Shown here: positions 51,047 to 52,445 of the stretch, piece by piece | How positions within the stretch are numbered: position 1 is the first letter of the stretch | How the letters are laid out: every line of letters begins with the position of its first letter | Origin: Marinomonas hwangdonensis | GTDB lineage: Bacteria > Pseudomonadota > Gammaproteobacteria > Pseudomonadales > Marinomonadaceae | Reading direction: 5' to 3' | NCBI RefSeq assembly: GCF_003721245.1 | Contig: NZ_RIZG01000004.1 | Location: 1 to 64,000, forward strand | Length of the DNA stretch: 64,000 bases | Notes under the pieces: generated by a model | What the model saw: only the letters and a program-made list of their open reading frames with translations | What the model was told of the DNA's origin: nothing | Databases searched by the model: none | Position numbers and translations under genes: made by a program

Positions 51047-51100
51047 AGGCGAAAACTTAAATACTGTGTATTGTTAAGCAATATAAATAGGAATATGATT

Positions 51101-51220
51101 CGCAAAACCTTAGGGGAGTAGTCTCTCAGCTTTAGCTGAGATAACCGTCAACAGTCTCCGAACAATCGTTCGTGGCGGTTATATCCAGTTTTCTGGATTG
51201 ACCAGACTTAAGGCAAGCGT
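51101..51220 (+). ncRNA. yybP-ykoY (Mn2+-sensing) riboswitch
   Basis: The conserved GGGGAGTAG lies at 51113-51121, directly after the P1 5' strand (CCTTA, pairing with TAAGG at 51209-51213). P2 is TCTCAGC/GCTGAGA. Then TAACCG pairs with CGGTTA and encloses GTCAACAGTCTCCG, like the E. coli mntP leader, and another hairpin ATCCAG/CTGGAT follows. This class binds Mn2+ and controls cation exporters. It lies upstream of a CaCA-type antiporter, as expected. A possible -10 TATAAA lies near 51083. Confidence 0.88.
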
Positions 51221-51270
51221 TGTTCTCGGGGGGGAGGGCATTGCTTGCCTTTGTCTCTTCCGCCCCGAGG
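51212..51270 (+). promoter_or_regulatory. Candidate expression platform of the riboswitch
   Basis: Two interleaved stems are possible: GGCAAGC (51212-51218) with GCTTGCC (51243-51249), and CTCGGGG (51225-51231) with CCCCGAG (51263-51269). The first uses the GG of the P1 3' strand, so it competes with the metal-bound form. Neither is followed by a long T run, so control by translation or by Rho is as likely as intrinsic termination. Confidence 0.45.
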
Positions 51271-51330
51271 ACGCTAATGTACTTAATCTAACTGTTTTCC
51301 TTGCTCTGTCCTTCGCTGGAGGGTTTGGAA

Positions 51331-51477
51331 ATGAATAACCTCAATGGGCTATGGCTTTTGATAAAGCGATACGCCACCGCTATTCTTTTCAAGTCTTGTT
51401 TGTTTAGATCAATACTACCCGAATCCATGATCTTTTTTGCATCGTTTCTTTTTTTCAAACGTGAGGTAACGTTATGA
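51331..51477 (+). CDS. Small hydrophobic ORF between the riboswitch and the antiporter
   Basis: A 48-residue frame (MNNLNGLWLLIKRYATAILF..., ending FFKREVTL) with a strong GGAGGG Shine-Dalgarno 8 bases before the ATG. Its stop codon overlaps the antiporter start as ATGA (51474-51477). It is rich in Leu and Phe. It may be a leader peptide that couples translation to the antiporter, or a small membrane protein. No homologue is recognised. Confidence 0.5.
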   Translation: MNNLNGLWLLIKRYATAILFKSCLFRSILPESMIFFASFLFFKREVTL

Positions 51478-52445
51478 CGCTCGCTATTTTCGCCTTATTA
51501 GGTGGCTTTATTTTGTTGGTATGGAGTGCGGATCGTTTTGTTGAAGGGGCGGCCGTTACAGCAAAATACGCCGGTATGCCTTCATTATTGATTGGTATGG
51601 TAATCGTTGGTTTTGGTACGTCGGCGCCTGAAATGGTGGTGTCTGCGATGGCAGCGATGGATGACAATCCTGATCTTGCTTTGGGTAACGCGCTGGGTTC
51701 GAATATTGTAAATACGGGGTTGATTTTGGGTGTGACGGCCCTGATTGCTCCGATTATGGTGCAATCTAATATTGTTCGAAAAGAACTTCCGTTGTTGCTG
51801 TTAATCGGTTTGGTATTTGGTTATTTGATTTGGGATGGGTCGTTGACACGTTTTGAGTCTGCGCTTTTGTTGGTTGGTTTTTTTGCTTTGGTTGGCTGGA
51901 GTATTTATTCTGCAATGAAAGGCAAAGGCGATGCACTTGAAGGCGAAATGGAACAAGAGCTGGTGACCCAGACAATGTCTAAATCCAGAGCCATTTTTTG
52001 GTTAGTGTTTGGCCTGGTTGTGTTGATCATAAGCTCTCGGGTATTGGTGTGGGGAGCGGTGAATATTGCCCAAGCGTTTGGGGTGAGCGATTTGATTATC
52101 GGCTTGACCATTGTGGCATTGGGAACTTCGTTACCTGAATTGGCGGCGTCTATTATTGCGGTGCGAAAAGGCGAGCACGATATTGCCATTGGTAACGTCG
52201 TGGGATCGAATATGTTTAACATACTTGCCGTAATAGGAATTGCGGGGAGTATTTCGCCGATGACAAATTTGTCTGCCGAGGTGTTGTCACGGGATTGGCT
52301 GGTAATGATGGGGATGACGGTGATGTTACTGGTTATGGCATATGGTTACCGTCGTGCAGGGCGTATCAATCGATTTGAAGGTGCGGGTCTGTTGCTGGCC
52401 TTTGTGGCTTATAACATTTGGCTGGTTTCCTCTGTTATTGAGTAA
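51474..52445 (+). CDS. Calcium/sodium antiporter (CaCA family, YrbG-like)
   Basis: A 323-residue inner-membrane antiporter with ten helices and two inverted alpha repeats: VGFGTSAPEMVVSAMAA ... LGNALGSNIVNTGLILG (about 43-85) and VALGTSLPELAASIIAV ... IGNVVGSNMFNILAVIG (about 215-260). The motif pairs G-T-S-x-P-E and G-N-x-x-G-S-N form the cation site. The Mn2+ riboswitch upstream suggests that Mn2+ (perhaps also Ca2+) is exported. A GAGGT Shine-Dalgarno lies in front; the start overlaps the upstream small ORF. Confidence 0.92.
   Translation: MTLAIFALLGGFILLVWSADRFVEGAAVTAKYAGMPSLLIGMVIVGFGTSAPEMVVSAMAAMDDNPDLALGNALGSNIVNTGLILGVTALIAPIMVQSNIVRKELPLLLLIGLVFGYLIWDGSLTRFESALLLVGFFALVGWSIYSAMKGKGDALEGEMEQELVTQTMSKSRAIFWLVFGLVVLIISSRVLVWGAVNIAQAFGVSDLIIGLTIVALGTSLPELAASIIAVRKGEHDIAIGNVVGSNMFNILAVIGIAGSISPMTNLSAEVLSRDWLVMMGMTVMLLVMAYGYRRAGRINRFEGAGLLLAFVAYNIWLVSSVIE

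Follow-up and report, generated by a model that had tools for sequence, protein, structure and literature searches.

A short leader ORF between a Mn2+ riboswitch and a cation antiporter gene of Marinomonas as a probable translational relay

Introduction

In Mycobacterium tuberculosis, a B12 riboswitch, the uORF uPPE2 and the ppe2 gene form a riboswitch-uORF-AUGA relay, demonstrated by mutation, in which the switch governs the Shine-Dalgarno (SD) sequence of an out-of-frame uORF, the stop of which is joined to the next gene in an AUGA overlap, and in which ppe2 expression depends on uORF translation (PMC11260477, as described in the accessible part of that paper). The arrangement reported here has a like anatomy of switch, leader ORF, and overlap, and differs in that i) the M. 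tuberculosis switch belongs to the B12 class and is an OFF switch, whereas ours belongs to the Mn2+ class and is presumably an ON switch; and ii) here the architecture could be counted over 25 loci, the leader peptides are unconserved, and the leader is split in the clade of the window, by which we mean the whole 64,000-nt stretch analysed (positions 1 to 64,000 of contig NZ_RIZG01000004.1 of Marinomonas hwangdonensis). The relay as such is already known from the B12 system; what appears to be new, judged by sequence, is a Mn2+ version with a leader ORF.

Riboswitches of the yybP-ykoY class, which one study is said to have defined as Mn2+-responsive, are also found at mntP and alx. They precede UPF0016/GDT1 exporters in 328 of the 333 strains that carry such a gene (PMC7380456, accessible part), and in Bordetella pertussis a riboswitch of the same class belongs to the exporter gene BP3410, which is Mn2+-induced via transcription stopping in the riboswitch region (PMC8546581, accessible part). 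Both systems share with ours an aptamer of this class upstream of a cation transporter; they differ in that, in the 51 UPF0016 loci we inspected, the start codon after the switch belongs to the exporter itself, whereas here it belongs to a leader ORF, and in that control in B. pertussis is ascribed to transcription stopping and not to an SD (PMC8546581). The uORF CruR likewise controls metal-related genes after transcription, but its nascent peptide senses copper and stalls, its peptide motifs are conserved, and the 162-bp gap to its next gene is called incompatible with coupling (PMC9426467, accessible part). In Salmonella, a short intergenic ORF promotes translation of a Mg2+ transporter and the initiation regions are hidden in structure, but the opening of the abstract describes no riboswitch relay of the present form (PMC8092293).

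Among the titles and abstract openings of the open-licence literature we recognised no report of a leader ORF or uORF coupled at a yybP-ykoY riboswitch, and the accessible parts of PMC9426467, PMC2659441, PMC5331693, PMC8546581, and PMC7380456 describe no such Mn2+-riboswitch leader. The usual reading of a riboswitch assigns its control to whichever annotated gene comes next; at this locus the controlled start appears to be that of a short leader.

Results and Discussion

The antiporter gene and the ORF that overlaps its start

Positions 51474-52445 of the window (+ strand) encode a CaCA-family cation antiporter (calcium/sodium antiporter), which matches both Na_Ca_ex (PF01699, E 5.1e-68 in a Pfam search) and TIGR00367 (234.1 bits, above the curated cut-off of 179.65); its closest named relatives are those of other Marinomonas, with 98% antiporter identity to M. 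arctica. An earlier note had described a 48-codon ORF between a Mn2+ riboswitch and this gene, and had suggested that it might be a leader translationally coupled to the antiporter or might encode a small hydrophobic membrane partner of it. A recheck of the sequence found the ORF exactly as claimed: 51331-51477 on the + strand, with ATG at 51331-51333, TGA at 51475-51477, and a product of 48 aa; an SD, GGAGGG, at 51318-51323, 7 nt 5′ of the ATG (8 nt if counted from GGAGG); and an ATGA at 51474-51477 common to the ORF stop and the antiporter ATG (51474-51476). That this SD is better than the antiporter's own is arguable, since the latter, GAGGT at 51463-51467 with a spacing of 6 nt, is likewise a five-base match. 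The 48-codon frame has an additional upstream TTG at 51301.

The Mn2+ riboswitch and its alternative helices

By sequence and predicted structure, the upstream element is a yybP-ykoY Mn2+ riboswitch. The RF00080 covariance model matches 51108-51268 with 37.9 bits and E 1.1e-8 in a 721-base search, below the gathering score of 45; the aptamer itself spans 51108-51213 (+ strand; RF00080 match, alignments A2 and A3), and the alignments show conserved GGGGAGTAG and TCAACA together with covarying stems. The helix formed by CCTTA (51108-51112) and TAAGG (51209-51213), which we take to be P1.1, is paired in 89.4% of alignment cells. A second model, R1, built from 19 leaders, scores the window at 173.2 bits, the window being one of the 19. 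Directly 5′ of the aptamer lie sigma-70-like promoter hexamers, TTGTTA-17-TATGAT (51071-51099, + strand; 9/12 matches); the promoter scan gave 2 sites in the region against 1.4 expected and is weak alone, while TTGTTA is kept in six of the seven riboswitch-bearing rows of alignment A1 by a count made by eye, and is absent from locus L066. The scan for intrinsic terminators found none in the riboswitch platform.

Three further helices compete in this region. The strand CTTAGGGG (51109-51116, + strand) can pair with CCCCGAGG (51263-51270) when P1.1 is unformed, an RNAalifold helix that would hide the SD just after the switch and that is paired in 98.3% of cells in 17 sequences, with no compensatory change among the 17. 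Hairpin S1 (51210-51251, + strand) pairs AAGGCAAGC (51210-51218) with GCTTGCCTT (51243-51251) and overlaps the 3′ strand of P1.1; four of its six counted pairs change on both sides and remain paired. Hairpin S2 (51225-51269, + strand) pairs CTCGGGG (51225-51231) with CCCCGAG (51263-51269), crosses S1 and excludes the anti-SD pairing; it has compensatory changes in 4 of 10 pairs and is paired in 87.7% of cells. P1.1 and the hidden leader SD are mutually exclusive because both need the strand CTTAGGGG.

In unconstrained single-sequence folds of nine leaders the SD core is mostly paired, and by eye the anti-SD strand is its partner in the minimum-energy folds of six, the window not among them. 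Forcing P1.1 freed the whole SD in none of the nine and part of it in L091 and L067; in L071 and L133 it released some outer SD bases only, and in the four Marinomonas leaders none, S2 retaining GAG. We infer the ON sign of the switch, rather than read it from the folds, because forced P1.1 frees the SD partly at best; an ON sign would fit the Mn2+-induced exporter riboswitch of the same class in B. pertussis, where the route is transcriptional.

A fixed start beside the switch in 25 loci

We gathered orthologues of the antiporter from 48 genomes of the genus and from named records (the best 80 of 168 loci), and R1 matched 30 of 89 sources in this first set, a thirty-first match being weak and on the opposite strand of L067. 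For the family of L071, 98 of 295 genomes with antiporter matches at E <= 1e-95 formed a second set: five matches were already riboswitch loci, and the other 98, scanned with R1, gave one new locus (1/98), L210, their upstream stretches being 800-1500 nt long, which could leave undetected a riboswitch that stands in front of an intervening gene. Removing second genome copies (L003 = L062, L004 = L064, L005 = L065, L006 = L066, L007 = L068) and the near-identical L069 and L128, and adding the window, left 25 non-redundant loci, from Marinomonas, Pseudoalteromonas, Paraglaciecola, Catenovulum, Salinimonas, Acinetobacter, Shewanella, Marinobacter, Porticoccaceae, and Thiogranum among others. Three of them were recovered by R1: L074 and L075, beyond the stretch first pattern-searched, and L121, with a variant motif; L095, flagged by the pattern search, had no R1 support and was left out. 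R1 scores are not independent proof for 19 of the 25 loci, since those 19 trained the model; independent matches to RF00080 come from eight Marinomonas antiporter loci, of which two exceed the cut-off. No match was found by RF00080 or R1 at the closely related Marinomonas orthologues in genomes G001 and G029, nor by R1 upstream of the close same-genus orthologues L072 (M. alcarazii) and L009. Class-wide, R1 matched 6 of 369 genomes, and by eye the loci shown, apart from the window, are exporter-type or unrelated.

Taking as start the first ATG, GTG, or TTG 160-172 nt after the GGGAGTAG motif, a range set after an earlier look at the distances, we found a start codon in 25/25 loci, 161-171 nt from the motif, against 13.3 expected from shuffles. 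L121 carries GGGAGGAG in place of GGGAGTAG; L066, with a start at 162 nt, has a second motif copy. In none of the 25 is the start beside the switch's SD that of the structural gene, which begins 211-451 nt from the motif. The ORF from the switch-adjacent start ends within -10 to +25 of the next gene start in 21 of 25 loci, with 1.44 expected from dinucleotide shuffles; the actual ends of these 21 lie +1 to +19 from the A of the next gene's start codon, overlapping it every time and never falling before it. When each of 12 lineages, which were delimited by eye, is represented by a single locus, with the window standing for Marinomonas and counted as a miss, 11/12 fit where 0.88 would be expected (P 2.5e-14). 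An earlier, SD-based start rule gave 18/22 against 4.1 expected, and taking the chosen starts as given, three later loci having been picked by eye, gives 21/25 against 5.5.

The exceptions are the window, L062, and L063, in which a stop follows after four codons, and L068 (M. pontica), which is frameshifted. Compared with M. polaris, the leader of the last (L068, 1889-2200) is short by one base, and its frame continues for 200 nt beyond the point where the antiporter starts; this may be a real exception or a sequencing error.

In two of the 25 loci the next gene is not the antiporter. In L074 (969-2972, Shewanella algicola) and L075 (956-2981, Marinobacter vinifirmus), riboswitch, leader, bacA, and antiporter stand in one apparent operon; the leader overlaps the start of a full bacA (PF02673) and the antiporter comes after it. 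In two others the leader runs through what is left of such a gene: in L098 through a bacA tail (BacA positions 217-257; 29.8 bits, below the cut-off of 33.4), in another frame and open, the bacA-tail frame itself being open to about 10 nt 5′ of the antiporter, and in L210 through a bacA-like tail (identified by eye), again open in a frame other than that of bacA. These tails prompted the idea that the leader is a vestige of bacA, which was dropped because L074 and L075 carry a full PF02673 bacA with a separate leader before it.

Loci in which the switch directly precedes an exporter

As a control we inspected 57 RF00080 loci, 51 of which have a UPF0016 motif in the next gene; one representative, when checked, was GDT1 (PF01169). 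In these 51 the exporter's own start stands 155-226 nt from the riboswitch motif, directly after the switch, and a pattern search found an SD-like string before it in 43. The other six comprise the window, L178 and L180, which are antiporter loci of Marinomonas, and L159, L162, and L164, which lack the motif and whose next genes are presumably MntP-like. Since in 51 of 57 loci the exporter start adjoins the switch, the platform as a rule acts directly on the exporter, and it is the antiporter loci examined here that are marked by an inserted leader. The genome of the window holds both forms: one copy of the antiporter leader, and a second RF00080 site (L165; G000:C19:498810-499023) directly 5′ of a UPF0016-type exporter with no leader ORF.

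A probable relay from switch to leader to antiporter

Taken together, these loci make it probable, on sequence grounds, that the Mn2+ switch acts on the leader ORF and the leader ORF in turn on the antiporter. Without Mn2+, the aptamer 5′ strand CTTAGGGG would pair with the SD that follows and hide it; Mn2+ would stabilise P1.1, which would reclaim the strand and free the SD; ribosomes would begin on the leader ORF at the fixed site just after the switch; and, the leader stop overlapping the next gene start, terminating ribosomes would restart there and make the antiporter. The suggestion in the earlier note of a leader coupled to the antiporter under the Mn2+ riboswitch is the best reading of the locus, and 21 of the 25 loci have an equivalent leader ORF. 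Against it stand the four loci that depart from the simple form, and a hiding helix with neither compensatory change nor a place in the window's minimum-energy fold. If the control point is the leader start, it would escape any reporter fusion or model that takes in the antiporter start only.

The split leader of the window clade

In the window, the start beside the switch is not that of the 48-codon ORF. The switch-adjacent SD, GAGGA (51267-51271), precedes an ATG at 51277, 163 nt from GGGAGTAG, which opens a mini-ORF of four codons (ATG TAC TTA ATC, then TAA ending at 51291; the whole feature 51267-51291, + strand; peptide MYLI). A four-codon ORF is also found in L062 (M. arctica; MCFS) and L063 (M. 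rhodophyticola; VCLI), start codon and TAA being kept in 3/3 species. The ATG at 51331 lies 54 nt downstream of 51277 and 39 nt after the mini-ORF stop; since the two starts are 54 nt apart, the two ORFs share a frame, and the leader amounts to a single frame interrupted by a stop. The switch-adjacent ORF of the window does not overlap the antiporter start; the second, same-frame ORF does. The earlier placement of the 48-codon ORF under the switch is accordingly to be amended: the start next to the switch is 51277, and the 48-codon ORF would be the second step of the relay.

In the alignment of close relatives, the ATG, SD, and ATGA of the 48-codon ORF are kept in the three species of the clade, window included; none of the other Marinomonas leaders in alignment A1 has its start codon. 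M. polaris and M. lutimaris are without the extra stretch and have one uninterrupted leader, which by eye aligns in frame with the C-terminal half of the window ORF.

A local hairpin (51296-51331, + strand) covers the SD of the 48-codon ORF and the A of its ATG, with predicted energies of -11.8 kcal/mol in the window and -15.6 and -14.6 in the sister species (z -1.4, -2.6, and -1.9); the predicted probability that the SD is unpaired is <=0.12 in the window, and reaches 0.79 in L062 and 0.19 in L063 for single SD bases. In the three split species the TAA is followed within one to four nt by the beginning of the 5′ arm. The footprint of a terminating ribosome should cover such an arm, and since the SD-holding hairpin begins within this expected footprint, a two-step hand-over suggests itself: ribosomes would load at 51277 and stop after four codons; a ribosome terminating on the mini-ORF would sit on the 5′ arm of the SD-hiding hairpin and so permit initiation at 51331; and the 48-codon ORF would hand ribosomes to the antiporter at the ATGA. 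We put this forward tentatively, its basis being three related species and modest fold z-scores. Equally speculative, and to our minds slightly short of an even bet, is the wider proposal that the switch's SD serves the four-codon ORF only, that its terminating ribosome melts the hairpin and opens a leader indifferent to its peptide and through it the antiporter, and that this riboswitch subtype is built to control a disposable frame behind which any first gene (the antiporter, or bacA in two loci) could be placed.

The main competitor concerns this two-step part only. Given its GGAGGG and the 39 nt that separate its ATG from the mini-ORF stop, the 48-codon ORF could start independently of the riboswitch, in which case the relay would be short-circuited and the antiporter weakly Mn2+-regulated; yet in each of the three species the folds predict an SD that is mostly paired, and each also keeps the start codon and stop of the mini-ORF. 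We regard an independent start as rather doubtful.

Polarity and peptide as alternatives

With an SD of its own, the antiporter could be initiated independently, and leader translation might then do no more than shield the transcript from Rho. The terminator scan points in the same direction: its single terminator-like site is inside the antiporter gene, and termination control in the leader would therefore need Rho. Shielding alone would not, however, need the leader to end where it does, within the first 19 nt of the next gene in 21 of 21 fitting loci, and polarity control with the antiporter starting on its own SD seems to us improbable compared with a relay by re-initiation.

Still less likely is that the ORF encodes a functional small protein, such as the hydrophobic antiporter partner that the earlier note had proposed. 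The window ORF is indeed hydrophobic (GRAVY 0.75), the three sister species have MNN[LV]N and the C-terminal end in common, and the leaders of L067, L070, and L071 are alike; but the 48-aa peptide has no match in Pfam or NCBIfam searches, and the GRAVY of 20 leaders ranges from -0.58 to 1.41, with nine hydrophilic on average. Leader dN/dS is 0.40-0.89 in eight of nine pairs of related loci, the remaining pair being saturated and not computable, and overlaps the 0.27-2.39 of the two wrong frames, some leader values lying below wrong-frame ones; single leader values are imprecise because the leaders are short, and weak peptide constraint may exist. The antiporter gives 0.04-0.13 in the seven of nine pairs where it is computable. 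Between the window and L062, 142 of 149 aligned bases are in the same frame despite long insertions, whereas in the sister species L063 a different frame is used for 74 of the 143 bases of the 48-codon ORF that align, both frames being open to the same ATGA. Neither dN/dS nor these frame changes between sister species give a sign of purifying selection on the leader peptide, and by eye the leaders compared have no motif in common. The earlier note had held that a frame not conserved in close relatives would refute its proposal; such changes count against the peptide and leave coupling standing.

With the start adjacent to the switch, the ATGA overlap, dN/dS like that of wrong frames, and the exporter control, it is probably the act of translating the leader, and not its product, that relays the switch, the peptide itself being disposable. 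This in turn suggests that what keeps a short ORF in place can be its translation, the peptide that it encodes being little constrained.

That short open frames arise by chance in a stop-poor leader is hardly credible: the 48-codon ORF by itself is weak evidence, since 10-13% of dinucleotide shuffles of the ORF body also remain open to the antiporter start, but the 21/25 loci and 11/12 lineages counted above are far from the 1.44 and 0.88 expected, and on this comparative sequence evidence the ORF is lifted above chance.

Natural variants and annotation

For the requirements of termination and re-initiation the locus set offers natural variants, among them leaders whose out-of-frame reading passes through gene remnants. 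In Paraglaciecola, a Moraxellaceae MAG, Acinetobacter, and Pseudoalteromonas (L067, L069, L070, and L071), the layout of riboswitch, leader, and antiporter is nearly identical and the antiporters are 80-82% identical to that of the window; so similar an arrangement across these four suggests horizontal transfer. Lastly, the RF00080 sites at six of the eight Marinomonas antiporters fall below the gathering cut-off (30.6-43.7 bits), so annotation based on that cut-off would miss them.
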